From: Planctomycetota bacterium
Lineage (GTDB): Bacteria; Planctomycetota; UBA8108; UBA1146
Direction: 5' to 3'
Length of the DNA stretch: 64,000 nt
Assembly (NCBI GenBank): GCA_013911165.1
Contig: JACETR010000006.1
Location: 1 to 64,000 of the forward strand
In this document: positions 25,050 through 40,226 of the stretch, piece by piece
Layout of the letters: every line of letters begins with the position of its first letter
Position numbering within the stretch: the first letter of the stretch is position 1
Notes under the pieces: generated by a model
What the model was told of the DNA's origin: nothing
What the model saw: only the letters and a program-made list of their open reading frames with translations
Databases searched by the model: none
Translations under genes and position numbers: made by a program

Positions 25050-28001
25050 TCAAGGACAACTTGAGGGCGTCTGACAGTTGGGCAATGCGTCCGTATCGGT
25101 CGGATCAATGCCACACCCTGGATAGGGAGCAGCTGGAGGAGCTTCTCCTCCAAACAGGAACCCCACAATCCCCACAGGGTCGGCAATGTTGACACTGCCA
25201 TTGTCTGCAAAGTCCGCAGCGTCCACACAACCGATGGCAAACCCTTCAAACAGATACTGAAGCACGGTTACGGCATCCGAAACATCGACGCTTCCATCAC
25301 CATTGGCATCTCCACGACGGAAGACTGGCCCCTCGAAACAGACCTTTTGGAAGATCTCGAAATCATCGACTCCCATCTCAACGATGGAACCCGTGTCCGC
25401 GTCGGAAGCGGAAAACCGCAGTTGAACCGTAGAAGTCAACGGAATGAACGATTCGACCCGGAAGGAATGGAAAACCCAACCTCCATTGGTATCGGGGCCA
25501 CTTTGGGGACCGAGAGTTTCCACTTCGACCCAGCTGGTCAGATCATTGGAAATCTCAACTCTCGCACTGTCCGTGTAAGGGGCAGCGCCTGTTCCGTTGG
25601 AGTACCAGCGCCAATAGGAGATTTCCACAGGGTTGACAGCGTTGGCATACTGACTGAGATCAAAAATCGGCGTCTTCAGGGTCGTCACACCCCCGTCGAC
25701 ATCGTTTTCACCCAGTGATCCCCCAAGCGAACCCTGACCGGTCACCCACGCCACTGCACCGCCGGTTCCGTTACCGGATTCGGGTTGGGCTGCCGTTCCA
25801 ATAGGATCCACCCGCACCCAAACCCCCGTTGTCGCAGTATCGGTGGGTTCTCCCACTGTCCAGCCAGTATCGGTTTCCATATCGTCAGAGAAACTCACAG
25901 AGAACTGACTGATCACTTCAAGGCTGAAGGGTGCTGTCGCCCCTGTCTCCGGAAGCAGAAATTCGGTGCCCAGTTGATCGAGGAAGCGGAAGTAGAATTC
26001 CACCGGATCGCCACAGCCCTGTCCCGCAAGTTCTGCGACAAATTCAGTCGAGCCCTGCCAGGAAATGGGAACGGATGAGTATGCCCCAATCCCTTGACGG
26101 TAGAAAAGTTGACCCGAATCAGGGTTCACTGCCGTCGTTCCGGGAAGAGCGGAAATTCGAATCGTTTCCGTAACATTCGGAGTCAGGTTTGCGGGCAATC
26201 CCTCCGGCAAAACCAGGGTCAGCGGAGGTGGAATCGGACAATCGATCGAATGATTGCCAAACACGTTACAAATCAGATCGAAGTTGGGCGTACCGTTGCC
26301 AAGATTTCCGTCGTCGTCATCGAGAACGAGAACCTCGATGGCAGTCTCCGGGTGGGCACTTGAATCTCCCACACCTCCGATAGTAATCAGGGACCAATCA
26401 ACAAATAGTTGCTGAGTGAATTCCAGCCCCTGCTGACTTCCAAGAAGAGTCCCGAATGATTCTCGCAACAGCCAGAAACAGGATCCCAGTATCTGCCCAC
26501 AGGTGTGTACCGAGGTCGTCGGACAGGGGTACTGAATATTGGCAGCGATAGGATCCCGGACCTCTGTGCCCGGACCCAGAAAACCTCTTCCGATGATCGG
26601 GTCATCGAGAATCAGCATACTGACTACGTCAGAGAAGCCTTCGCCAAAGCCACCTTGTGCCAATCCGAGTCGGTTAACGATGAAATGCCCATACTCATGA
26701 GCCACCACACTGGCAAAGCTGGTGTTGACACAACCTCCTCCCTCCTGGAAGAAGTTGATACTTTGCTCACCTGGGCTGAAGAACGCATTGCATGTGTCGG
26801 TCAGATTAACATTCGCTGTCAACGACACATCGATACCGGGATTGCCACTGGTTCGGGAACGAATGAAATCATGCGTCACGTGCGTGTAATGGTATGCGTT
26901 ACACTCTGCGACGGTCAGAGGATCGTAGACAGGGTTCATCACCAAATTGGCTGGACCTGGAGGAGTCACGTTCAGTGCCGCGGAAAGGTTCGCTCCGCTC
27001 ACATTGATGACCGAGCACCATGTCCCAGTCAGATTGGCGAGAACCTGAACTGGATCAACACCGCCATGGGGGATCACAAAGGAACCATCCGTCTGTGAGA
27101 CCGCACTCGCACCGCCACTGATTCCCACATTAAGCCCCTGGAGAGGCGTGGATTGCGGTGGGTTCGAAACCGTATCCGGCTCCAGTCCCGGGGTGATCTG
27201 GGCGGTGACCGTCCCCTCCACATCCGCGTGGAGGATTTGGGTTTTGACTTCAAGAATCAGCCCGGTTTCCGGGTCAACACTGATCGCCCAGTCCTCCGCC
27301 TGCTCCGGTCGAAGACCCGTAGCCACAATTCGGTACACCTTGCGGCCCTCATCTTTTCGGGAAGCGCTCGGTTCGATCAGCAATCGGGGCTCTTGCCACT
27401 TCAACTCCGAAGATCCTGTCCACTGATCCCGGGCCATTCGCAAAGCCTCTTCGGGAGTCAGCAAGACTTCAGCATAACCACTGACGGGCTCCAAAGAGAT
27501 ATGGGCAGCCGCGTACACCAGAGACCTTTCTCCGGTCACAGAATCAGGCCGGGTCAAAAACCGGATAGCAGAATTTTCCACCGGGATTCCATCGATGATC
27601 TGCCTGTAGGCCAAAACGGTCGCGTCACGAGTGGGGAGATCTGAGGCAAAGAGAAATTCCAGATCAGACGGAAACAAACCCAGGGCCGCAGAGTGATCAC
27701 GAAGAAAACGATCGATCAACTCTTCATCGGTAGTGCCCCAGGCAAAGGGAGCACCGAAGAGATAGGTTCGACCCCATTCATCCCTTTCGGCCATGACCTC
27801 GGGGTGCAGCTGGAGGAACCCTCTCAGGGCATTATCCACCTCTTCTGCGTGTGGACGCTGGCTCCAGTCTCCTTCGGCAGGGACCTGACCCTGAAGCGGA
27901 ATCGCCCCACTTACAGTCAGGAAAACTGCGAATAGAAAGCACATCCACAATGTGGATTTCACCATTTGATTGAAATTAAAGGATCCAAGTCGATCCGTCA
28001 T
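25050..28001 (-). CDS. Secreted M36-like metallopeptidase with FTP propeptide and dockerin-like tail
   Basis: Signal peptide (VKSTLWMCFLFAVFLTVSGAIP), then an FTP-type inhibitory propeptide (YRQIIDGIPVENSAIRF) and PepSY-like piece, then the peptidase with zinc motif VVAHEYGHFIVNRLG and the third-ligand segment GFGEGFSDVVSM, as in fungalysins (M36). A GDDDG-type loop (LDDDDGNLGNGTPN) follows. The C-terminal third is a beta-sandwich region (ISYWRWYSNGTG, VDDFEIFQ) and a dockerin-like unit, FRRGDANGDGSVDVSDAV, ending in SSCP. Length is 983 from ATG 28001, favoured because GGGGGG lies upstream; the track start is 28055 and 27965 is another option. It probably works outside the cell. Closely related to the next gene. 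Confidence 0.85.
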   Translation of the reverse strand: MTDRLGSFNFNQMVKSTLWMCFLFAVFLTVSGAIPLQGQVPAEGDWSQRPHAEEVDNALRGFLQLHPEVMAERDEWGRTYLFGAPFAWGTTDEELIDRFLRDHSAALGLFPSDLEFLFASDLPTRDATVLAYRQIIDGIPVENSAIRFLTRPDSVTGERSLVYAAAHISLEPVSGYAEVLLTPEEALRMARDQWTGSSELKWQEPRLLIEPSASRKDEGRKVYRIVATGLRPEQAEDWAISVDPETGLILEVKTQILHADVEGTVTAQITPGLEPDTVSNPPQSTPLQGLNVGISGGASAVSQTDGSFVIPHGGVDPVQVLANLTGTWCSVINVSGANLSAALNVTPPGPANLVMNPVYDPLTVAECNAYHYTHVTHDFIRSRTSGNPGIDVSLTANVNLTDTCNAFFSPGEQSINFFQEGGGCVNTSFASVVAHEYGHFIVNRLGLAQGGFGEGFSDVVSMLILDDPIIGRGFLGPGTEVRDPIAANIQYPCPTTSVHTCGQILGSCFWLLRESFGTLLGSQQGLEFTQQLFVDWSLITIGGVGDSSAHPETAIEVLVLDDDDGNLGNGTPNFDLICNVFGNHSIDCPIPPPLTLVLPEGLPANLTPNVTETIRISALPGTTAVNPDSGQLFYRQGIGAYSSVPISWQGSTEFVAELAGQGCGDPVEFYFRFLDQLGTEFLLPETGATAPFSLEVISQFSVSFSDDMETDTGWTVGEPTDTATTGVWVRVDPIGTAAQPESGNGTGGAVAWVTGQGSLGGSLGENDVDGGVTTLKTPIFDLSQYANAVNPVEISYWRWYSNGTGAAPYTDSARVEISNDLTSWVEVETLGPQSGPDTNGGWVFHSFRVESFIPLTSTVQLRFSASDADTGSIVEMGVDDFEIFQKVCFEGPVFRRGDANGDGSVDVSDAVTVLQYLFEGFAIGCVDAADFADNGSVNIADPVGIVGFLFGGEAPPAAPYPGCGIDPTDTDALPNCQTPSSCP

Positions 28002-28312
28002 ACTGCCATCCCCCCGCCTCGCTGTGTCAGAACAGGTTAAAGTCGCAACCAACACAAAGGTGCACAGGGAGTTAATCTGAAATGAGCCTCAATCACGCGA
28101 ACAGGGTCTGCAAGGATCGATCTTATTGGGCCAGAAGCTCATCAAGTCCGACTGCAGAATCCCGATTCAACGGAAAAAGAAGTCCACTCTTTCGTTGTAA
28201 AATTCATTTCGTGCACCAAATGGCATCATATAGGGGCGGATAGTCCAGTGAAACCAACATCATCTCGAGAGTTGGGAACAGGTCTCCATTTTGGAGCGGG
28301 CACATTCTGCCC
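28002..28312. other. Intergenic region between the two M36-like peptidase genes
   Basis: About 310 bases with no credible gene. The only structure noticed is an imperfect hairpin around 28168-28197 (CAACG ... CGTTG arms with an AAAG/CTTT inner part), which might weakly end transcription of the upstream gene on the minus strand. The 64-codon minus-strand ORF at 28204-28398 overlaps the 3' end of the upstream peptidase gene and has no start signal. The region must hold the promoter for the 25050-28001 gene, but no convincing -35/-10 pair was found. Confidence 0.5.
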
Positions 28313-31183
28313 TCAGGGACAAACAGGGAATAACTGACAATCCAGTGCATCGAAGGTGAGATCTGGACCACAAGGACCACCCACTGGAACCCCTCCACCG
28401 CTGAAGAGTGAAGAGAGCATCAGGATCGCATCCCCGACGTCCACCCTTCCGTTGTCATCTGAATCACATGCGTCCTGGCACAAAAAGTTGCTGGTTGCAC
28501 CGAACAGGACTTCCAACAACTGCACTGCATCACTGAGATCATTTGAACCATCTGCATTACAATCCGAAGGGATGTAATCACTGTTGACCGGAGGAGGCGG
28601 TGGCCCTGTGTTGTCGCACTCCAATACCCGAACCTCAATCAGATCGACCCCCGCTTCGACGATGCTGCCACCACCCAGATCACCGGTGTGGAAACGCAAT
28701 CTTACAGAATCGGTTGAGGAACTCCCGGGCTCCACGGTGAATGAATTTTGGAACCAGCCACCACCCGCCTGTGGGTGCCCTGGGCCAATTTCCTCAATCA
28801 CTTCCCATGTGCTGCCTCCATCGAGGCTTTTTGAAACTGTCAGAAAATCATCCGGAGTACTGGCAGAGGCGTTGTTACAGAACCAGCGCCAATAACTGAT
28901 TTCCTGACGGACCGCTGGGTCCAGTGCAAATGCGTCAGTCGTCAGGGTGGTGTCACCAAAATCGATGTCCTCTGCACCAAGCGATCCTCCAGGCTCTCCC
29001 AGCCCGGTGAAATACCCGGCGGAATCACCATTGGTGGAAGGCACTCCAGAGGCTGGCTGGGCGGCTGTTCCCACCGGTACTCCCCACTCCCAACGTCCAA
29101 CCAATGCAGTATCCGATGGCAGAGAAGTGCTCCAGCCAGGATCGGTCCCCAACGATTCCTCCTGTGCAAGCGCAGTTGAAGTGGCGACCAGAGTGGAGAG
29201 AGGCTGATTCGGTCCCAACGCAGGATATTGGGTAACAAATCCACCCTGATCAGGAACCCTGACGTACCACTCGAGCGAAGTCAGGCAGGTTTGAGGAGGA
29301 ATGACCCCCTCCAAACGTGAGTTGGGAGCAGCCTGAAGTGGACTACTGTTCCAAATCGAGCTTCCTTCCTCACGATATCGAATCTCCGATTCTCCCGCAG
29401 CCGGGGTAGACGAAATTGTCTGCCAGTTAATCACCACTGGATAATCGACTTGAGGTGGCATCAGGTCAGCGGGGCCTTCAACGAGTGTCAGGATCAATGT
29501 GGCCAAATCTGGACAGGCCAATCCACCGGCATCCGCTGCTGCACAGATTTGATTCCAGTGAGGAGATCCATTGTTCAGATCTCCGTCATCGTCATCCGCT
29601 GTCAAGACTTCCAAAATCATCTCATCGCGAATTGGATACCCATTTATTCCACCCATGGTCAGGGCGGACCAATCGACAAAGAGCTGCTCCAGAACCTGTT
29701 GACCCACTGTCGCACCCAAATCGGTTCTCAGATTATTTCCCAAATTAAACCAGAACTTGCCGAGGGCCTGACCACAGAAATGGATACTGGATCCACAGGG
29801 AACGGTCACAGAAGAACCGGAAACATTGCGAACATGATTTCCGGATCCGGCAAAGTCCCTGCCGATGATTCCATCCTGGAGATACACGATTGCCAGAGCA
29901 TCCCCATAACCTTCACCAAATGCACCTTGAGACAAATTCAGAGAGTTAACGACGTGGTGCCCGAACTCGTGCAATACAACACTCGAATAAGCGCTGTCGA
30001 CACAACCTCCACCCGCACGCAGAAAACGCAGAAGTTGTTGGGATGGGTCGTAATATGCATTGCAAGTTCCGGACATCCCCGTCGTCGCATTGACTGGTGA
30101 GGACATTGCGGGGAAGCCACCAGCAGATTCCATAAAGAGTCGATACCCCTGATCGACATAGTGAAAAGCATTCAATTGGGCGATGAGGTTGGGATCTCCG
30201 CCGCCGTCAAAGACCAGATCCAGATTCGGCCCCGAAGCTTGTCCAGAAACCGTCATGACTGAAGCGATCTGACTGCTGACCCCTCCCCATTCCCCATCCA
30301 GCTCCGCCAGTACAGTGAAACTGCTTTGGGAAGAACTCAGGGAGTAATCGCCATTCAGATTCGCATGAGTCGTGGCTCCCCCACCGGTCAGCCGGACTCC
30401 GCTCATCGATTGAATACTGGTACCTGCACTTCCTTGAGGTCCAGTTCCGGAAGTCCGCTCGGCAAAGATCGAACCACTGACGTCCAGTGAGCAAACGATC
30501 TCCTCAACAGCGATTCTTTGCCCACTCAATGCGGAATAGTCGATTCTCAAAGTACTATGGAGACTTTCATCGAGAGAGCTTCCATAAAATACCCATGCCA
30601 GCTCAGCATGCTTACCCTCACCACGGATATACTCCAGTTTGGGCACGCTCCATTTGCGTTCAGGGAAGTCAGCGTCGGGGTCGAGCATATTTGCAGAATA
30701 GAGATCAGATTCCGAATGAGCAGCTTGCCATTCCACTCCGACGAATGCTCTGTACTGACAGAACCAGCGACCGTCTTCTGCCTGGACCATCCACATTCTT
30801 CCAACAGACTCCCGAACCGGCACCCCGCCAAGAGACTGGGACCATGCCAGCACAACACCCCTGCCCGGTACTTCCCGTAGCCATTCCAACTCAAGAGTCG
30901 CTGCCGTCGCCTCCCCCAAATGGAGAGTGGCATCCGCAAGGGCTGCGGAAGAAAGAGAACTCGCAGATGGCCCGCTACCCGATTTTTGAAGAGTCAGTGC
31001 TGAGGCAAACAGCGAGTCAGAACAGGGAGCGAAGACAATTATAGCCATAAGGATCGACAGAACCGGTAAGGATTGGCTCTGAAGAATTCGTGGACTTACT
31101 TCATGCGTTCTCGGAATCAACCGATCCAAGACGCAATCCGTTAAGTACTTTATCCAGAAAGTCAGGTGTTTAAGGTTCCCCAA
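28313..31183 (-). CDS. Second secreted M36-like metallopeptidase with dockerin-like tail
   Basis: Paralogue of the preceding protein over almost its whole length. Zinc motif VVLHEFGHHVVNSLN and third-ligand segment GAFGEGYGDALAIVY are in the same places; the acidic loop is ADDDDGDLNNGSPHW; the beta-sandwich carries GTAAQPASG and ISYWRWFCNN as in the neighbour. The dockerin-like end (CNADGSNDLSDAVQLL, then DSDDNGRVDVGDAILML) closes with PVCP. The FTP propeptide is weaker here. The start is uncertain: the track uses TTG 31183, which has AGGA upstream, but gives a long N-region before the hydrophobic segment LPVLSILMAIIVFAP. Extracellular; substrate unknown. Confidence 0.82.
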   Translation of the reverse strand: MGNLKHLTFWIKYLTDCVLDRLIPRTHEVSPRILQSQSLPVLSILMAIIVFAPCSDSLFASALTLQKSGSGPSASSLSSAALADATLHLGEATAATLELEWLREVPGRGVVLAWSQSLGGVPVRESVGRMWMVQAEDGRWFCQYRAFVGVEWQAAHSESDLYSANMLDPDADFPERKWSVPKLEYIRGEGKHAELAWVFYGSSLDESLHSTLRIDYSALSGQRIAVEEIVCSLDVSGSIFAERTSGTGPQGSAGTSIQSMSGVRLTGGGATTHANLNGDYSLSSSQSSFTVLAELDGEWGGVSSQIASVMTVSGQASGPNLDLVFDGGGDPNLIAQLNAFHYVDQGYRLFMESAGGFPAMSSPVNATTGMSGTCNAYYDPSQQLLRFLRAGGGCVDSAYSSVVLHEFGHHVVNSLNLSQGAFGEGYGDALAIVYLQDGIIGRDFAGSGNHVRNVSGSSVTVPCGSSIHFCGQALGKFWFNLGNNLRTDLGATVGQQVLEQLFVDWSALTMGGINGYPIRDEMILEVLTADDDDGDLNNGSPHWNQICAAADAGGLACPDLATLILTLVEGPADLMPPQVDYPVVINWQTISSTPAAGESEIRYREEGSSIWNSSPLQAAPNSRLEGVIPPQTCLTSLEWYVRVPDQGGFVTQYPALGPNQPLSTLVATSTALAQEESLGTDPGWSTSLPSDTALVGRWEWGVPVGTAAQPASGVPSTNGDSAGYFTGLGEPGGSLGAEDIDFGDTTLTTDAFALDPAVRQEISYWRWFCNNASASTPDDFLTVSKSLDGGSTWEVIEEIGPGHPQAGGGWFQNSFTVEPGSSSTDSVRLRFHTGDLGGGSIVEAGVDLIEVRVLECDNTGPPPPPVNSDYIPSDCNADGSNDLSDAVQLLEVLFGATSNFLCQDACDSDDNGRVDVGDAILMLSSLFSGGGVPVGGPCGPDLTFDALDCQLFPVCP

Positions 31184-31399: not shown

Positions 31400-31768
31400 T
31401 CAGCGGGACTTGAGTCGAAATCTGGATACCGCCATAGTCAACCAACTCACGATCATTCCAAATCCGCCGACGGGAGCCACCGCTCCCCAGAATGACGCCC
31501 CCCCCAGAGCCAGCATGTAGACCGCTCCACAAAAAACCGCAGTAGATACGGCCATCAGAACACCCTGAAAACGCATGACCGGGGTCGCTGAGGAACAAAT
31601 CCAGATCCCGATCGAATGCCAAAACAGAATCCGCGTTGCAGTCGCAAACTGCCTGGGAGCATCTGCATCGTGCCACTGGTCCTTCAACAGGTGTGCGCCC
31701 ATCGCTGCGCAAATCACTGCCAAAGCGGCGTAGAAGAAAGCCACAGATTCCAGAATACGTATATTCAT
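31400..31768 (-). CDS. DUF423 membrane protein
   Basis: A 122-residue protein with about four membrane segments (SVAFFYAALAVICAAMGAH, ILFWHSIGIWIC, MAVSTAVFCGAVYMLAL, APVGGFGMIVSWLTMAV). The GAHLL start, RxxFWHSIG, FCGAVYMLALGG and APVGGFGMIVSW elements are those of DUF423, a widespread family of unknown function. ATG 31768 overlaps the stop of the methyltransferase upstream (ATGA), so it is the last gene of the SRPBCC-MTase-MTase operon. Whether the membrane protein has anything to do with methylation is not known. Confidence 0.85.
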   Translation of the reverse strand: MNIRILESVAFFYAALAVICAAMGAHLLKDQWHDADAPRQFATATRILFWHSIGIWICSSATPVMRFQGVLMAVSTAVFCGAVYMLALGGASFWGAVAPVGGFGMIVSWLTMAVSRFRLKSR

Positions 31769-32973
31769 GATGGATCTACCACGGCAGCCTCACTTCTGGC
31801 TCGTGTAGCAACAAACAGCCATTCATGAACTTCATCGGCGGACCTGCCAGGAGCCGGACGGAAGGTTCTGTTTTGTTCCCCCTGCTCTTGTGGTTTTTGT
31901 GTATCACTCCGAAATCTCCGGTAAGGAATTTCCAGCAGTGTTATCGAGGATGAGGTACCGGTTCCTGACCATTCCTGAAGAATCTGCTCCAACTCGGATC
32001 GATCCAAAATACCTTCTTCGCTATAGGAGAAGACGATAATGTCAGCCTTCGCTTCTTTCAGCAGTTGACGCATTGAACGAAAGCACTCTTCCCCTCTTCG
32101 ACTGCAAAGCGGGGAAGCCTTGTCTTTCCACGGAATCAGTCCCGTTTTTCCATAAATGGAATCTTCGAGACGTTGGTCTGACTCTTCATGGGGCAAAAGA
32201 GAAATGATTTCGGGAAGGTGGTAATTAGCGGGATACTGACGCTGATTATAGGGCGGATCAACGTAGAGTAACTCGCACTCGACTGAAGAGATCCACTCCA
32301 ACGCATCTTCCCGGTGAGCCACTCCAACTGGGCCTGTCACGAGTGCGGGTACACGCAACTCCAGAGAGCGCATGGCACTCCCCTGCATTTTCTTGAGATA
32401 TGCACCGTAGGTTCCTGAGATATTGGCAACCCTGTCCGCAGCATCGATGCAACTTGCAAGGAGGATGCATAACTCGTTTTCAGTCAGGGAAGCGGAAACT
32501 CGCCACGCTCGCAGTTGATTCAATATTCCGTCGAGTCGTGCCGCATTTTCCGGAGAGAGGTAATTCCTTTGCGCTTCTCCCGCACTGGAAAATTGGCGGA
32601 ATAGCAATCCTTCTTCAGCAGGGAGAATCTCCTCCAAATATCGAACCAGCTTCAAGAAGGGAATCCAGGATTCCCCGGTTTCCTCTTCAAGGTTTGCGAG
32701 TCTCGCTTGCGGAGCCGGAGACAGTGACTCCCAATACTGTTTCAACCCCTCAAATCGGGGTGGCACTTCCGATTCAAGATAAGCCTTCTGAAAAACGTGG
32801 GAGCAATTCATCAAATCTGTCGACAACACCTTGCAGCCCTGGGCACGAAAAAACCGTCCTACAGAACCACTTCCCGCAAAGAGATCGCACACTGTCCCAC
32901 CCTTGAATCCTGCTTTCAGGGCCGCAGCGTGAATTTCTGCAAGAAGAGGGCCTTTGTTCCCCAGCCAGCGCAA
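31765..32973 (-). CDS. D12-class DNA adenine N6-methyltransferase (COG3392-like)
   Basis: Transfers a methyl group from S-adenosylmethionine to adenine in DNA. Class-alpha motif order is visible: MRWLGNKGPLLAEI (motif X), CDLFAGSGSVGRFF (SAM-binding motif I, about 29-41), STDL (motif II) and LLYVDPPYNQRQYPANYH (catalytic DPPY at about 239-242). Between I and IV is a large recognition-type insert with ANISGTYGAYLKKMQGSAM, the hallmark of COG3392-type enzymes. Start is TTG 32973, three bases after the other methyltransferase's stop, with GAGGT upstream. 402 residues, complete. No restriction endonuclease gene adjoins it. Confidence 0.88.
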   Translation of the reverse strand: MRWLGNKGPLLAEIHAAALKAGFKGGTVCDLFAGSGSVGRFFRAQGCKVLSTDLMNCSHVFQKAYLESEVPPRFEGLKQYWESLSPAPQARLANLEEETGESWIPFLKLVRYLEEILPAEEGLLFRQFSSAGEAQRNYLSPENAARLDGILNQLRAWRVSASLTENELCILLASCIDAADRVANISGTYGAYLKKMQGSAMRSLELRVPALVTGPVGVAHREDALEWISSVECELLYVDPPYNQRQYPANYHLPEIISLLPHEESDQRLEDSIYGKTGLIPWKDKASPLCSRRGEECFRSMRQLLKEAKADIIVFSYSEEGILDRSELEQILQEWSGTGTSSSITLLEIPYRRFRSDTQKPQEQGEQNRTFRPAPGRSADEVHEWLFVATRARSEAAVVDPS

Positions 32974-32976
32974 AGT

Positions 32977-34359
32977 CTAGACCTCACAAAGCAGGAGAAG
33001 TTCCTGCACTGCTTTGTTGGTATCACCTTGTCCAGAGTGCATTAACTTTTGCTCTCGGACTTCGACAGTATTGAAGTACTCCAGCAGGAGATCGCGCATT
33101 TGGGCAACCGGTTGTGAATGTCCTTCACGAGTCCATTTTTTTGTCAGCAAGCCGGTATCACCTGAATAAGAGATCAACAGGCTTGCTCCTCTGCTGACAC
33201 AACTTTTGGCAACTTTTCGAAATGCTTCTTCGACTTGCGATCCGCTACAAAAATCAGAAGTGAAGCGGGTCTCCCGAATTGGATATCTTCCCTTGGTCAG
33301 TTCATCGCCCCTGCATTGGAGCTCCGGATAATCGTACCGGGCGAGTGTTTCCAGTACATGATAGAAGCGACTGTAGTTGTCTGAGGTATAGGGGGGATCA
33401 AGATAGACGAGATCGACCTTTTCAGAATCCAGAGGACTATCTTCTCCCAACAACTCGAGAACGTCGGAGCAAAAGACCCTGTTACCGGACAACCTTGGTC
33501 GCTCCAGAACTTCACGGCGAATGGCATCCAGTGCCAGTTCAAACTGCTCTTCGATGTCGATTGATCTTCTTTTTACGACAGCCACCAGTTCCTTGTCCTT
33601 CTCTACAGACCGGGGCTGTGCAAAGTGACTGGTTCCCGAGGTACTCACGGAAACGGCATGAAGCAAGGCTGCCAGGTAGATGGACTTTTTCTCCTGAGAG
33701 AACTCCGATTCTGTCGGGATCTCATTAATCGCCTGGCGAATAGAATCGATGGCGATGGCCTGCTTGATTCCAAAATAGACCTGCCCCCAGTATGCGACGC
33801 ACATCATCGCTGGAGTCGACTCTCTTGTTCTCCGTCTCGCACTCAAAATTTCGGGAAGGAGCGGCCGAATCGTTGCGTAAGGATCGTCCTGAAGATCATT
33901 TTGCGGACTTTGGTACGGCACCGGGACGAGAGAGCAGAATCGGCGATATTCTGTCAAAAGCGCACCCTCTATGGGGTCAGTTGTAAGCAGTTGGTCGAGC
34001 AGTTCCGTTTCTCGGGTCAGGGATTCAGCGTAAAGACCTTCAAGGGCATCGGCATTACGACCTCTGGCATCAGCCAAGTCTGATTCCGGCTCAAGTCGGT
34101 CCAGTGCCCTGGCCCAGTCTTCGGAGACCTCCAAATGGGCCCGAGCTATCACCGAGGAAAACTCCTGGGCATCATTGGCCAGAACACGATAGTCCCCTGC
34201 AAACCAGCGCCCCACCGCGCCAGTTCCGGAACATGCATCCAGTATCGTCGCACCCGGAGAGACCAGATCCCTGACAGCACCGTCGATAAATTCTTCACAC
34301 AATCGGGTTTTGGCACCCATATACCAGAGTGTTCTCAGAGGTGTCATTGGGGCACTCAT
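32977..34359 (-). CDS. Second D12-class DNA adenine methyltransferase-like protein
   Basis: A 460-residue relative of the neighbouring enzyme but clearly different in sequence. LRTLWYMGAKTRL (motif X), ILDACSGTGAVGRWF (motif I, about 39-53), LANDAQEFS (motif II) and LVYLDPPYTSDNYSRFYH (DPPY at about 321-324) give the same class-alpha order. The insert between motifs I and IV is longer and includes AYWGQVYFGIKQAIAIDSIR and STSGTSHFAQPR. The start was moved from 34485 to ATG 34359, which overlaps the SRPBCC stop (ATGA) and follows GGAAG. Two dissimilar enzymes in one operon could each methylate one strand of an asymmetric site; this is inference. Confidence 0.85.
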   Translation of the reverse strand: MSAPMTPLRTLWYMGAKTRLCEEFIDGAVRDLVSPGATILDACSGTGAVGRWFAGDYRVLANDAQEFSSVIARAHLEVSEDWARALDRLEPESDLADARGRNADALEGLYAESLTRETELLDQLLTTDPIEGALLTEYRRFCSLVPVPYQSPQNDLQDDPYATIRPLLPEILSARRRTRESTPAMMCVAYWGQVYFGIKQAIAIDSIRQAINEIPTESEFSQEKKSIYLAALLHAVSVSTSGTSHFAQPRSVEKDKELVAVVKRRSIDIEEQFELALDAIRREVLERPRLSGNRVFCSDVLELLGEDSPLDSEKVDLVYLDPPYTSDNYSRFYHVLETLARYDYPELQCRGDELTKGRYPIRETRFTSDFCSGSQVEEAFRKVAKSCVSRGASLLISYSGDTGLLTKKWTREGHSQPVAQMRDLLLEYFNTVEVREQKLMHSGQGDTNKAVQELLLLCEV

Positions 34360-34943
34360 CCGTAGCTTCCAATCTGTTCCATACTGACCTGCAAATCTGC
34401 AAGCCACTTCCTCTGGCATTCGGCACACAAGGAGAGAGTTTTGCCTTGACCCAAACCCGCGAGCCAGGCACTCCACCCCTGCCAACTAACCAAAAATTCC
34501 ACCCATGTTCCTGAAGCATCATGCCCCAGACTGATACAAGCATCACTTCTCAAAGGCCCCCAGCCTGAAGTCCAGACCAACTGGTAGCAATCCTTCCCCG
34601 ACTCACCGGTGTTGTTCCCCGGATCATTTCTGACAGAGGACCATTCACGCCCCTTGTGATTCAGGAGATGGCTGAGATTCAGGATTTGACCGACCTTTCG
34701 GAAGCGAACTTCTTCAGGGTCCTTCAGCAATGCGATCGTTCCACCACGGAGAGGAGCAGGGGGCCTGAGCTCCCAATCCAGTTTCCAGCGGATTCCCGGA
34801 GTCAGGTCCCGCAGATTTCCCGGGCCGGAAACCTTCACCGAATGACACCAATCTTGCCATGAGGCCAGATCTGTCAGGTGTGACCAAACCTTTTCGGGGG
34901 CAGCGTTCAACCAGGCTGTTTCCCTGACTGATACCACTCTCAC
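34356..34943 (-). CDS. SRPBCC (START-like) superfamily protein
   Basis: A 195-residue protein with the polyketide-cyclase/START-like pattern: VSVRETAWLNAAPEKVWSHLTDLASWQDWCHSV, then PGIRWKLDWELRP and a long C-terminal helix (KTLSLCAECQRKWLADLQVSM). The fold forms a hydrophobic pocket for lipids or aromatic ligands. The GTG start at 34943 is chosen because AGGAGGGG lies six bases upstream; the track start is a TTG at 34997 without such a signal. It is the first gene of the methyltransferase operon and overlaps the next by ATGA. Ligand and role are unknown. Confidence 0.75.
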   Translation of the reverse strand: MRVVSVRETAWLNAAPEKVWSHLTDLASWQDWCHSVKVSGPGNLRDLTPGIRWKLDWELRPPAPLRGGTIALLKDPEEVRFRKVGQILNLSHLLNHKGREWSSVRNDPGNNTGESGKDCYQLVWTSGWGPLRSDACISLGHDASGTWVEFLVSWQGWSAWLAGLGQGKTLSLCAECQRKWLADLQVSMEQIGSYG

Positions 34944-35738: not shown

Positions 35739-36026
35739 TCAGCCTTCCTTCGCCTTTTGTGAAATCTTGCTGAAGTGGTTTCGCAATAAGGATTGCTTTC
35801 CAGGTTTCAAACCCCTGAGTTGTTCTTCAAACAAATTCACCATTTGCCAGCGGGCCAACAGGGAAGTGATCCGGGTGCTCACTCTGGGGCTCGGATCCCG
35901 AATCGCCGGCGCCAGTACCTTCACCTGCTCCTGAGTGAGAGCTTCCTTCAGCAACTCCTTGAGGATCAGTTTCTTTTCCCTCCCTTCTGACTCCAGAAAA
36001 GAGCGGATCTTCTCCTCGATGCTCAC
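35739..36026 (-). CDS. Small helical protein of unknown function
   Basis: A 95-residue, mostly helical, charged protein (VSIEEKIRSFLESEGREKK, LKELLKEALTQEQVKVLAPAIRD, HFSKISQKAKEG). The middle, APAIRDPSPRVSTRITSLLARWQ, looks like a HEAT-type repeat. It is not recognised as a named family. The start is a GTG at 36026 whose GTGA overlaps the stop of the DUF4139 gene upstream, so it is coupled to it and probably expressed with it; the track start 36077 lies inside that gene. No signal peptide, so the partner proteins may be exported while this one stays inside. Confidence 0.6.
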   Translation of the reverse strand: MSIEEKIRSFLESEGREKKLILKELLKEALTQEQVKVLAPAIRDPSPRVSTRITSLLARWQMVNLFEEQLRGLKPGKQSLLRNHFSKISQKAKEG

Positions 36027-37744
36027 TTCAGCAGATCCAGCAAGTCGCCACTGTCCTTGTCCGCTGTCGCGGTCCAATGGAAAATCACCTCTTTGCGTAC
36101 TCCCGCAGGAATCTGAAGATTCCAGCGACAGATCCCATCACGACTGATCTCCGGTTTGGGTTCCGTTTCATCCCCCAGCTCTATTTCCAACTCTTCCACC
36201 AGACTGACCGGAATCCGGGAAACCAACTCAAGGGTGACGGGCCTATCAAGGTACGAGGTCACTGCAAACAATGATTTTTTCTCCAGTCGGGGCCGGGAGA
36301 AAGCCGATCCCGATGGCGATCGGAACTCTCCCAAATCCTGCACATGTAGCTTGAGACGACCCTCCAGACCGAAGAACTGGACGAACTCCTGACCGGCAGC
36401 GATCGTTTCCACATTCCCCAATCCCACATAGGTCCCGGATCGGAAGCACTGGACTTCACCGTTGAGCAATAAACCGGGCCCGGGCTGAACTAATCGGGCC
36501 TTTCGATATACTCCAGCCCCCAATGCAGGAATGGCTTCGTAGGACAGCTCTGCCACTGCTTCCCAGGTCTGGATTTCGACAGCGTGGGCGCTTCCATCCG
36601 AAGGCACGTCGGACAGGGTTTGGATACGGAAAGAAACGACCCCACCAAATCCGGTTTCCATCACCGGAGCTGCCCAACCGGCAGGATCAAAGCCGCGGGA
36701 ATCGTCGCTGGTCTCTGCACTCTCTTGCGGTACCGCATCGGAGTCCATGGAATCAGCTGAAGGTGCAGAAACCAGTTTCGCGTTCCTGTCCCCCAAACGT
36801 TCAGCCAGCGAGACTTCAATGGGAATCAGTTGGCCCACACTCAGTCCCAGCGACGACCGCAAAGTGGAAAGTGTCAACTCAACAGCGGACCAGTCTTCCC
36901 CCGAAGACTGGGTCACTTGTGCACCCTGTTTCCACGTCACCTTCCCGGTTGAATCGTTCAATCGGGCTTCATGAACCGGTTTCCACCGTGCTGATGGCAC
37001 ATCATAGGAAAGGTTCAAATCGAGGGCACAATCCTCCAAGACCTGGCAGGTCACCGAAGCAATCCAGTAACTTCTTCTGGCATCCCTTTGATATCGCCTG
37101 AGATCAGCCAACAGATCATTTCGCTCACGCTGCAGGGATTCACGCTCCCTTTGAAGCAAATCGGCTTCTTCAGAGTTTTCCACCTCATTGGTGAACAGCC
37201 ACTGCTGGATCTCACTGACTTCCTGCAAATTCCACAGGGGGCGCTGAGGATCACCGGCGGGAGCTGAGACGACGGCTCGAAGAATCTCTGAATAACGCTT
37301 CAGAACACGATTTCGTAAATCCGCAATCTCTCTCTTGCCCTGATTCACACTCAGGCGTTCACCGACCTTATCCAACTTCTCCAAAAGTTCCGCTTCCTGC
37401 GCATGATTGACCTTCAGCGGAAATTCTTCTTCGAGTTGCACACCAAGAATGAGGGACTTTTCCGTCGCCTCCCCGGCAACTATGGCTCTTAAACTGTTTG
37501 GATTCAATTCTGCTGGAAGTTTACGGAAAATCACCTGATGAAGACCTGCGGTCAAATCGAGGCTTCGTTGACGTGTCACCCTTGCCCTGTTTTCAAAGAC
37601 AGTGACCGCATGCGGTTTGTCGATTTCGACGGAAGAATTCTCCTGTGCAGTAGTGACAGCAGAAAACCCGGTGGTCAGCGAAGTCATGAGAATGGTTTTC
37701 AGAAGGAACCCCGAAAAGCGGCTCTGGACTTTATGAAGTAACAT
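36023..37744 (-). CDS. DUF4139/DUF4140 (MuiA-like) exported protein A
   Basis: A 573-residue protein with a signal-type N-terminus (GFLLKTILMTSLTTGFSAVTTAQ), then the DUF4140 beta domain (VTVFENRARVTRQRSLDLTAGLHQVIFRKLP), a coiled coil (AQEAELLEKLDKVGERLSV and DLLQRERESLQRERNDLLADL), and the DUF4139 beta region (DLNLSYDVPSARWKPVHEARL). The family includes MuiA, named for a mucoidy phenotype, but the molecular role is unknown. The ATG at 37744 overlaps the stop of the paralogue upstream by one base (TAATG). It overlaps the small gene downstream by four. Confidence 0.8.
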   Translation of the reverse strand: MLLHKVQSRFSGFLLKTILMTSLTTGFSAVTTAQENSSVEIDKPHAVTVFENRARVTRQRSLDLTAGLHQVIFRKLPAELNPNSLRAIVAGEATEKSLILGVQLEEEFPLKVNHAQEAELLEKLDKVGERLSVNQGKREIADLRNRVLKRYSEILRAVVSAPAGDPQRPLWNLQEVSEIQQWLFTNEVENSEEADLLQRERESLQRERNDLLADLRRYQRDARRSYWIASVTCQVLEDCALDLNLSYDVPSARWKPVHEARLNDSTGKVTWKQGAQVTQSSGEDWSAVELTLSTLRSSLGLSVGQLIPIEVSLAERLGDRNAKLVSAPSADSMDSDAVPQESAETSDDSRGFDPAGWAAPVMETGFGGVVSFRIQTLSDVPSDGSAHAVEIQTWEAVAELSYEAIPALGAGVYRKARLVQPGPGLLLNGEVQCFRSGTYVGLGNVETIAAGQEFVQFFGLEGRLKLHVQDLGEFRSPSGSAFSRPRLEKKSLFAVTSYLDRPVTLELVSRIPVSLVEELEIELGDETEPKPEISRDGICRWNLQIPAGVRKEVIFHWTATADKDSGDLLDLLK

Positions 37745-39504
37745 TATTCACCCCCCAATCTCTCAGGGGCTTCCCGGCGCAAGAGAATCTTGTCTTTGGG
37801 AATTTGCATAGTCCAAATCAGACGGAGCTCGCGGGATTTTCCGGGTTCGACAGTCACGCTCCAGCGCAATATTCCGTCTACGGGTTTCAGATTTTCCGGG
37901 GCGGGTTCTGTTTTTGATTTATCAATCTCAATGGAGACCGATTCGTCATCACTGACGGGGATTCTTTCCAGAATCTCAATAGTCTCCGCAGAATCCCCGT
38001 AGTTCTCCAACTTCAATCTCGTCTCAGTGCGATACTCTGTCAGTCTGCTCAGTAATCCCCTGGTTTCTTCTGACTCCACAGTGTTTCGGCTCACAACGAC
38101 CTGGTCCATCGTTCCGAGGTCCAGCGCCCATTCTTCACCCGGAGCAACAGTGTTTTCGATCCGGGTCATTCCCAGATAATCTCGACCGGCAAAAACTGAA
38201 ACTTCTCCTGCCAACAATGGCTCTTCCCCATTCAGGGAAAGCAACAATCGGCGAAAGACGGCAGTCTCCAATTCCGGAACACACCTGTGAACTGCCTTGA
38301 AGGGAATCGTATCGATGGAATAAAGGCGTCTATGTGGTGACCCGGTGGATTCCACCTGCTCTGCATGAATCGCCTCGAATACAGTCAGGAATCCGCGATC
38401 ATCCAACCCGTCTGCTGCGCCCGCTTTATCGTCCCCTTCATAGAAGAAGGCCTTGCCCCTGTCGAAAGACAATCCACCGAGAACCGGAGGTTGCTCACGG
38501 ATACGCCCCCGCTTCAGTTGTTCGGGTCTTCTCCTTGGAGACTCCTTGTCATCGACACCGTTATTGGCAAGAGGTTTGGACTTGCGGCTCATGACCGGCT
38601 CCGGCTGAAGGAATCGAGGTCTTTCAATTTTCAGTGCGGAAAGACTTCCAGGTTCCGCACCGGATTCAGGAAGGCTGGTCGAGAAGAACATCGGAACCGC
38701 AGGCCAATCTTCTCCAGTCCACTGATAAACCTCTGCATAACTTTTCAGCTGGATCTGATCTGTCTCCTCCTGAACGTGGACTTGATAAATGGGCTTCCAG
38801 ATTGCACCAGCGACCTGGTACTCCACTCTGAAGACTCCACCTTTTCCGGAGAGATCCAATGATTCGATCTCAATCACGGCCTTGTTTCTCCCGGAGTTGA
38901 CTTCGTAGGTTGCCAACTCCTGCTCAAGTTTCTGCAGTGTGGATTTGGCAACAAGAATTTTCGGTACCAACAGGATTCTCTGATCTGTTGCGTTTTTCAT
39001 TCCGCTGAGGATCAGTTCGGCCAACCCTTGCCACGCTTTTTTTGACAATGGACTGTTCACTGAAGAACCCGGTTTCTCCGGGACCAGTCCTTCAAAACGG
39101 GCTTGATGGGCGGCAAGCGTTTCATCTTGACGCTGAAGTGCAAGAAGGGATTTTTTTGCTTCCGCGATTTGACCACGAAGAACCTTCAAACTTTGAGGCT
39201 CTACAGGATCCCCGCTCGATCGACGAACCTTGACGGACAAGACCTGTACTTCACCCTCAGCAGTCACACGAATCGAAGAATCCCGCAGACTTGAGGGCAG
39301 GGGGCCCAGTTGCAACAAACGCTGCCCGGGCTCACCTTCTGGTAACGCCACGGTTCGCTCCACATTGGCGATCCCCGGGTAAACCGTGACGGATGTGATC
39401 GTCCCGGGTCTGGATTCCTGTGAGCCCGCCATGGAGGGCAACCCCCATGAAATGAGAAGCAGCAGGAAACCAACCACTGCATTTTTAATGTGTCCGGGAT
39501 ACAT
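37744..39504 (-). CDS. DUF4139/DUF4140 (MuiA-like) exported protein B
   Basis: Paralogue of the preceding protein, 586 residues from ATG 39504, which has AGGAGG at six bases upstream (the track start 39531 is rejected). Signal segment AVVGFLLLLISWGLPSMAG, DUF4140 domain (ITSVTVYPGIANVERTVALPEGEPGQRLLQL), coiled coil, then DUF4139 with GVFRVEYQVAGAIWKPIYQVHV and PAVPMFFSTSLPESG. Similarity to protein A is clear in layout but low in sequence, so the duplication is old. Being coupled by a 1-base overlap suggests they act together, perhaps as a heteromer at the cell surface. Confidence 0.8.
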   Translation of the reverse strand: MYPGHIKNAVVGFLLLLISWGLPSMAGSQESRPGTITSVTVYPGIANVERTVALPEGEPGQRLLQLGPLPSSLRDSSIRVTAEGEVQVLSVKVRRSSGDPVEPQSLKVLRGQIAEAKKSLLALQRQDETLAAHQARFEGLVPEKPGSSVNSPLSKKAWQGLAELILSGMKNATDQRILLVPKILVAKSTLQKLEQELATYEVNSGRNKAVIEIESLDLSGKGGVFRVEYQVAGAIWKPIYQVHVQEETDQIQLKSYAEVYQWTGEDWPAVPMFFSTSLPESGAEPGSLSALKIERPRFLQPEPVMSRKSKPLANNGVDDKESPRRRPEQLKRGRIREQPPVLGGLSFDRGKAFFYEGDDKAGAADGLDDRGFLTVFEAIHAEQVESTGSPHRRLYSIDTIPFKAVHRCVPELETAVFRRLLLSLNGEEPLLAGEVSVFAGRDYLGMTRIENTVAPGEEWALDLGTMDQVVVSRNTVESEETRGLLSRLTEYRTETRLKLENYGDSAETIEILERIPVSDDESVSIEIDKSKTEPAPENLKPVDGILRWSVTVEPGKSRELRLIWTMQIPKDKILLRREAPERLGGE

Positions 39505-39527
39505 GACAGCCTCCTGGCTTTGGGTCT

Positions 39528-40226
39528 TCAAAGTCGCTGTGAGTTCTCGAGTTGGGCAATCCGTTTTTCGAGAGCATCCAGCTTTTCTTCCAGCTGACTC
39601 AAACGATCCGAAGAAGGCTGCGGGGGGGGCGAAGAGATTGAAGTGGCAGAGATTGAAGTGGCAGGGGTTGAAGTGGCTGACGTTGTCGATTCCGGTGCTT
39701 TTTCAACCATGGCATCAAGCAGCGCAGCATCCTGCAAAAGATGGCCCCAGCGAACTCCCCTTTGAATTCCAGGTGGTGTCAGACGACGAGCCAACGGTTG
39801 ATCTTTACCGGCAAGCCCCTGCAAGACTTCGTTCAGCGCTGCCATGTCGGGTATCGATTTCATTCTTGAGGCACGGGTACGCAGCTCACCGACCGTTTGC
39901 GCGCCTCTGAGAAGAAACTCAGCCAGAACAGCCATTTCCTGTCCATTCAATTCGAGCATCCCTGTCAGTTCCTGACGGTACTTCCCCGCCCTTGAACCCG
40001 AGGCAAAGACCTGTGTCGCCAGTCCACGATTCGCAAGCGTGTTCAGGACTCCTTCGACTTCGTCTTCCATCAGCGACATCACCGGATCCCGGTTTGATTT
40101 CTGATTACAGGCCGTCACCACCTGATTCAGGGTCAAGGGGTAATACTGGGGTGTGGCGAGAGACTTCTCGATCAGCACGCCCATGACTCTTTGCTCTGCA
40201 GCATTCAACAGAGGAGGTTCAAACAT
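39528..40226 (-). CDS. YceH/DUF480 family protein
   Basis: A 232-residue YceH-type protein: LNAAEQRVMGVLIEKSLATP followed by YYPLTLNQVVTACNQKSNRDPVM, TLANRGLATQV and ELLLRGAQTVGELRTRASRM-like winged-helix pieces (two WH domains). The function is unknown although DNA binding is plausible. A low-complexity Ser/Thr/Ala linker (SATSTPATSISATSIS) joins to a C-terminal coiled coil (LSQLEEKLDALEKRIAQLEN). The start is ATG 40226 (the track's 40391 extension has no family match), preceded by GGGA. It is the most upstream gene of the minus-strand group here. Confidence 0.85.
   Translation of the reverse strand: MFEPPLLNAAEQRVMGVLIEKSLATPQYYPLTLNQVVTACNQKSNRDPVMSLMEDEVEGVLNTLANRGLATQVFASGSRAGKYRQELTGMLELNGQEMAVLAEFLLRGAQTVGELRTRASRMKSIPDMAALNEVLQGLAGKDQPLARRLTPPGIQRGVRWGHLLQDAALLDAMVEKAPESTTSATSTPATSISATSISSPPPQPSSDRLSQLEEKLDALEKRIAQLENSQRL
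39634..39678. repeat. 15-bp tandem repeat inside the YceH-like gene
   Basis: Three copies of GAGATTGAAGTGGCA in a row; the first two are identical, the third has three mismatches. On the minus strand they encode the ATSIS/ATSTP linker. The unit is a multiple of three, so copy changes would keep the frame and only alter linker length. Confidence 0.85.

Follow-up and report, generated by a model that had tools for sequence, protein, structure and literature searches.

The stretch analysed here (the window) comprises 64,000 nucleotides of contig JACETR010000006.1 from an uncultured Planctomycetota bacterium (assembly GCA_013911165.1), whose genome is incomplete (88% complete, 2.7 Mb). Between positions 31400 and 34943, the minus strand carries a tightly coupled operon of four genes in the order SRPBCC, MTA, MTB and DUF423 (Table 1), in which MTA and MTB denote two predicted DNA adenine-N6 methyltransferases (MTases) of the D12 class. 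An initial annotation of the sequence had described four coupled genes, and we recovered every open reading frame (ORF) with the junctions as described: SRPBCC and MTA overlap in an ATGA, as do MTB and DUF423, and a gap of 3 bases separates MTA from MTB. Against close relatives, the four genes have ratios of nonsynonymous to synonymous substitution rates (dN/dS) of 0.05-0.17, which indicates purifying selection on each of them. The ratios are 0.05-0.08 for MTA and 0.08-0.11 for MTB.

Table 1. Genes of the operon in the window. Polyketide_cyc2 is an SRPBCC family; PF02086 is MethyltransfD12.
Gene product	Position	Strand	Length (amino acids)	Pfam match	Remarks
SRPBCC / Polyketide_cyc2 protein	34356-34943	-	195	PF10604, 2.2e-7	GTG start; operon gene 1
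MTA, D12-class DNA adenine-N6 methyltransferase (predicted)	32977-34359	-	460	PF02086, 1.4e-13	
MTB, D12-class DNA adenine-N6 methyltransferase (predicted)	31765-32973	-	402	PF02086, 2.5e-23	TTG start; FokI N-half type
DUF423 small membrane protein	31400-31768	-	122	PF04241, 1.3e-16	last operon gene

The two methyltransferases

MTA and MTB both contain a MethyltransfD12 domain above the Pfam cut-off, an S-adenosylmethionine (SAM) binding motif I and a DPPY motif IV. Motif I reads DACSGTGAVG in MTA and DLFAGSGSVG in MTB, and motif IV reads DPPYTSDNY and DPPYNQRQY, respectively. The DPPY and the aspartate and glycine columns of motif I are invariant among 24 relatives of MTA, as are DPPYN.RQY and the key motif I residues among 25 relatives of MTB. 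Both enzymes match type II MTase models in PADLOC; the best match of MTB is to the first half of a 646-position profile (MTase_II PDLC03287, 3e-58). A PDB search with the AlphaFold model of MTA (predicted local distance difference test score, pLDDT, 84.5) returned E. coli Dam-DNA complexes as the best match with high probability, suggesting that DNA is the likely substrate; adenine would be the methylated base, judging from the D12 family of both enzymes. The template modelling score (TM-score) between MTA and Dam is low, ~0.3 by query length, and MTA is much longer than Dam. The AlphaFold model of MTB is poor (pLDDT 65) and found no significant match in the PDB, and PDB sequence searches with MTA or MTB found no credible relative.

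The two enzymes resemble each other only over short stretches (35% identity over 66 residues and 23% over 120), and either is more similar to outside relatives of its own type than to the other. A recent duplication is therefore ruled out, in agreement with the initial annotation, which had treated them as distinct enzymes. Elsewhere in the genome there is a third D12 MTase of 368 amino acids (G000:C56:9655-10296, L079:6389-7492), distinct from both MTA and MTB. The family conserves it in a stable neighbourhood separate from that of the pair; related enzymes occur in many other planctomycete families, and it is likely another solitary MTase.

Conservation of the pair and search for a nuclease

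MTases in relatives were located by homology search. The family, genus and class labels below (f1, g1 etc.) are the GTDB-style groups of the genome search. ORFs in GC-rich relatives were called with a codon-position rule, and some antisense ORFs remain (e.g. in L054 and L132). Of the 29 genomes of the class, 26 contain MTA and 26 contain MTB. Orphan MTases commonly show such group-wide conservation and restriction-linked ones seldom do, 57% versus 9% at the genus level (PMC4752239), and the distribution of MTA and MTB fits orphan status. In a sample of 294 genomes from the phylum, 29 have both enzymes, 3 only MTA, 6 only MTB and 256 neither, at presence cut-offs of E < 1e-40 for MTA and E < 1e-60 for MTB. 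These counts ignore kinship among genomes, and Fisher values computed from them therefore do not give the probability that the two enzymes are independent; by family (~91 in the sample), the numbers are 10, 1, 5 and ~75. Both enzymes are missing in family f3.

The two genes are adjacent in f1, f2, f28, f56, f63 and part of f23. In f4, f5 and f6 they lie on different contigs and both are retained, with stable neighbours within f5. That both are kept despite this separation suggests a functional linkage beyond operon drift. The pairwise distance matrices of MTA and MTB correlate (r = 0.93, 31 genomes), and their trees concur on well-supported clades.

Profiles for the LlaJI nuclease domain and the FokI cleavage domain found no match in the 29 class genomes (0/29 each). 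Positive controls were detected with both, for FokI in Lactococcus and in the planctomycete genome G149. DUF2357 gave weak matches in 2 of the 29, one of them below the cut-off. None of eight genes near the window operon matched a restriction enzyme, and the earlier statement that no restriction gene is adjacent thus holds for the window. For the pooled neighbours of other lineages, none of the top 25 PADLOC families is a restriction-enzyme model; single matches in that listing go down to ~2e-17 and weaker ones may hide, so these scans exclude only strong restriction-enzyme matches. Within the profiles used, the pair has the appearance of solitary MTases, with no cognate endonuclease recognised in the class or among the scanned neighbours.

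Nuclease-linked relatives and neighbouring genes

Relatives of both enzymes are found in restriction systems. Outside the phylum, the most closely related pair lies on the E. coli plasmid pTE_T100_3 (NZ_MW574942.1), which carries in order an MTA-type gene (193 bits), an MTB-type gene (212 bits), a LlaJI-family nuclease (RE_LlaJI, 8e-31) and an AAA protein. In Lactococcus, a fused MTase with an MTB-type N-terminal half (258 bits) lies beside a FokI-C nuclease. An MTB-type enzyme in Psychrobacter adjoins a Dam-family MTase and two restriction-enzyme matches, and G149 combines an MTB-type enzyme with a FokI C-half MTase, a restriction-enzyme match and FokI cleavage-domain matches. According to the titles of references 391-392 in PMC4081073, the FokI methylase has two domains, one per strand. 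LlaJI has an asymmetric recognition site and two MTases, which are 5-methylcytosine (5mC) enzymes (PMC1459862), and type IIS systems usually need two MTases since hemimethylation often gives no protection (PMC12898733). MTA and MTB are thus two dissimilar MTases of types found in dual-MTase systems. These relatives lend independent homology support to the half-site idea of the initial annotation, in which MTA and MTB would act on the two strands of one asymmetric site.

Similar enzymes also occur in other settings. A cluster shared by two phyla (L135:5620-12681 in G148, and L159:4653-13585 in the Bradyrhizobium japonicum plasmid CP126019.1) consists of an MTB-type MTase, a HAD-family hydrolase, a large GGDEF-domain protein, a small methyltransferase and an MTA-type MTase. 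Its MTB-type enzymes group together (99/98), and the C-terminal half of the GGDEF protein is conserved between the two clusters and unannotated. The cluster is present in 1 of the 294 planctomycete genomes and is possibly an undescribed modification or signalling module using the same MTase pair. In a different multi-MTase cluster (L146:4643-8724 in G163), an MTB-type gene lies between another type II MTase and a weak match to MADS mad2.

The initial annotation had also proposed that SRPBCC and DUF423 could form a modification or defence module with the MTases, to be examined by searching other genomes for the same gene order. The order SRPBCC-MTA-MTB-DUF423 is found in every f1 genome whose contig reaches, and most f1 genomes keep the SRPBCC/MTA overlap and the tight MTA-MTB spacing. 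The SRPBCC-MTA junction lacks the overlap in G012, and G011 has a broken DUF423 frame. Since it recurs throughout the five genera of f1 with its spacing mostly intact, the order is more than chance. Synteny is wider in g1, g3 and g4, where two DUF4139 genes and a DUF480 gene lie upstream and two large proteins downstream; in g5 the genes after DUF423 are different and the operon itself is kept. SRPBCC occupies the same place in the f1 genomes and diverges fast (21-97% identity).

Outside f1, no SRPBCC or DUF423 gene was found next to the MTases, in f2, f4-f6, f23, f28 and f56. Products of the flanking genes there include a nitroreductase and a plastocyanin-like protein (G016), an ion channel (G045), a ChaN-like haem-binding protein (G050), an FHA protein with a kinase (G090) and an FKBP (G140); flanking genes in f5 encode radical SAM/BATS, prephenate dehydrogenase, Cpn60 and a sigma-54 activator. 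DUF423 lies on other contigs in the f6 genomes G021 and G026, was not found in class families other than f1 and f6, and has a match in 4 of 14 unrelated control genomes. Neither SRPBCC nor DUF423 matched a PADLOC model. By the criterion of the initial annotation, the set of four, which travels together in f1 only, is a family-level arrangement, while the two MTases look like a functional pair well beyond that family. Because they accompany the pair in f1 only, and DUF423 also occurs away from it, the simplest view of SRPBCC and DUF423 is that they are passengers in the operon of a single family, probably with no role in methylation.

Two further pairs of genes in the window belong to the wider block. 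Upstream, at 36023-39531, are two tandem DUF4140/DUF4139 proteins of 573 and 595 amino acids, which lie side by side in several f1 genera. Downstream, at 25050-31183, are two large proteins of one protein family (956 and 1001 amino acids), syntenic in three genera. The 956-residue protein has no Pfam match, and the 1001-residue protein only a weak dockerin-like one that falls short of the cut-off.

Interpretation and comparison with known systems

With moderate confidence, we propose that MTA and MTB form a solitary pair of adenine-N6 MTases that has no nuclease and serves one asymmetric site, inherited vertically as a housekeeping or epigenetic mark; the activity, the shared target and the regulatory role we infer from homology and distribution. 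That the pair is kept together across one lineage with no nuclease detected suggests that it probably writes a housekeeping DNA mark. By homology with dual-MTase systems, each enzyme probably methylates adenine on one strand of the same non-palindromic site, and the two together would give full methylation. After replication, remethylation of the two daughter duplexes would then need different enzymes. The mark may act on expression, replication or repair, for instance, as those of Dam and CcrM do. The probable origin of the pair is a dual-MTase restriction system of type IIS or LlaJI-like kind that lost its nuclease, or else a source common to the pair and such a system; the pair would then have become a vertically inherited housekeeping mark in one class of Planctomycetota. 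We are more tentative about the fuller claim that two dissimilar MTases, retained after their genes separated, form a nuclease-free epigenetic system and together bring one asymmetric site to full methylation, as a core function of the class.

Several observations weigh against this proposal. Some MTA-type enzymes lack an MTB-type partner, as do those beside a BglII-type nuclease in Dyadobacter and beside a DUF2357/PD-(D/E)XK protein in Roseibium. In a few genomes, MTB occurs without MTA (G024, G047 and G070) or MTA without MTB (G023, G155 and G291). In most of these the assembly is incomplete or the contig ends too early, and all three with MTA only are incomplete (in G155 the missing MTB would fall past the contig end), but G047 is 91% complete. 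Similar trees are expected for any two vertically inherited genes; a functional pair is better indicated by the retention of both genes once separated, by their shared absence and by their recurrent adjacency. Nuclease families are too diverse to be excluded by a few profiles. A k-mer search for enriched motifs upstream of dnaA yielded nothing convincing. The words found there are palindromic or composition-driven only, most of them concentrated in few genomes, and we therefore claim no target motif.

The same data bear on three other explanations. MTA and MTB could be two independent solitary MTases that recognise unrelated motifs, owe their adjacency to ancestry and are conserved for separate reasons. 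The unlinked genes of f4-f6, the dissimilar sequences and the presence of MTB without MTA in G047 and G070 are consistent with this, and the third conserved D12 MTase makes several independent marks plausible. Independence does not, however, readily account for the strong co-occurrence across separate families, the joint absence in f3, the repeated adjacency with changing flanks or the same pairing in a nuclease-linked system, and we consider it rather unlikely. A complete restriction-modification (RM) system, with its nuclease unrecognised or distant in the genome, appears improbable. The restriction-linked relatives of both enzymes, the incomplete window genome and the description of type II systems with distant nuclease genes (PMC4752239) speak for it, but the pair is conserved across the class in a family-stable chromosomal context with ordinary neighbours in the examined lineages, and the LlaJI, FokI and DUF2357 searches described above point the other way.

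Least probable is that SRPBCC and DUF423 work together with the MTases as a four-gene modification or defence module. The order and tight spacing kept across the f1 genera, and the intact operon of g5 next to differing genes, are what such a module would predict. Against it are the families in which the pair has neither small gene beside it, the occurrence of DUF423 apart from the pair and in unrelated bacteria, and the lack of PADLOC matches for either protein; moreover, the syntenic block reaches well beyond the four genes.

Among the known systems closest to our proposed solitary pair is the LlaJI-type system of pTE_T100_3. In both, an MTA-type gene is directly followed by an MTB-type gene, and the plasmid enzymes are each ~27% identical to those of the window over most of their length. 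The plasmid is conjugative, and a LlaJI nuclease and an AAA protein adjoin its two MTases, whereas the window pair is chromosomal and class-wide, with no nuclease recognised. The classic LlaJI system uses 5mC MTases (PMC1459862), whereas the enzymes of pTE_T100_3 and the window are adenine-type by homology. FokI-type (type IIS) systems share with the window an enzyme of the MTB type, there the N-terminal half of the fused MTase, and, under our proposal, the use of two enzymes or domains for two strands. The window differs in that the partner of its MTB is MTA-type rather than a Dam-like C-half, that its genes are separate and that the class has no FokI nuclease domain.

Solitary MTases conserved across a class are already a known kind. 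As far as our searches show, a co-inherited, dissimilar and nuclease-free pair derived from dual-MTase types has not been described; we found no paper on planctomycete methylomes describing the MTA/MTB pair, and the main text of Blow et al. (2016) does not mention Planctomycetes (PMC4752239). DnmA and CamA are solitary N6-methyladenine (6mA) enzymes with a non-palindromic target, as proposed here, but in each case one enzyme marks one strand instead of a pair. Dam, CcrM and the orphan families of Blow et al. (2016) are likewise nuclease-free, chromosomal and conserved across a taxonomic class, and the fold of MTA is nearest that of Dam. If our reading is true, the pair would show how a dual-MTase restriction system can turn into a housekeeping mark, here in a phylum whose cell biology is unusual. 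Dam and CcrM, the best-known epigenetic MTases of bacteria, each work alone on palindromic sites, and the same enzyme restores hemimethylated DNA after replication. The window, in contrast, encodes two co-inherited enzymes for presumably one asymmetric site, and remethylation of the two daughter duplexes by different enzymes would make strand-distinct timing or regulation possible.

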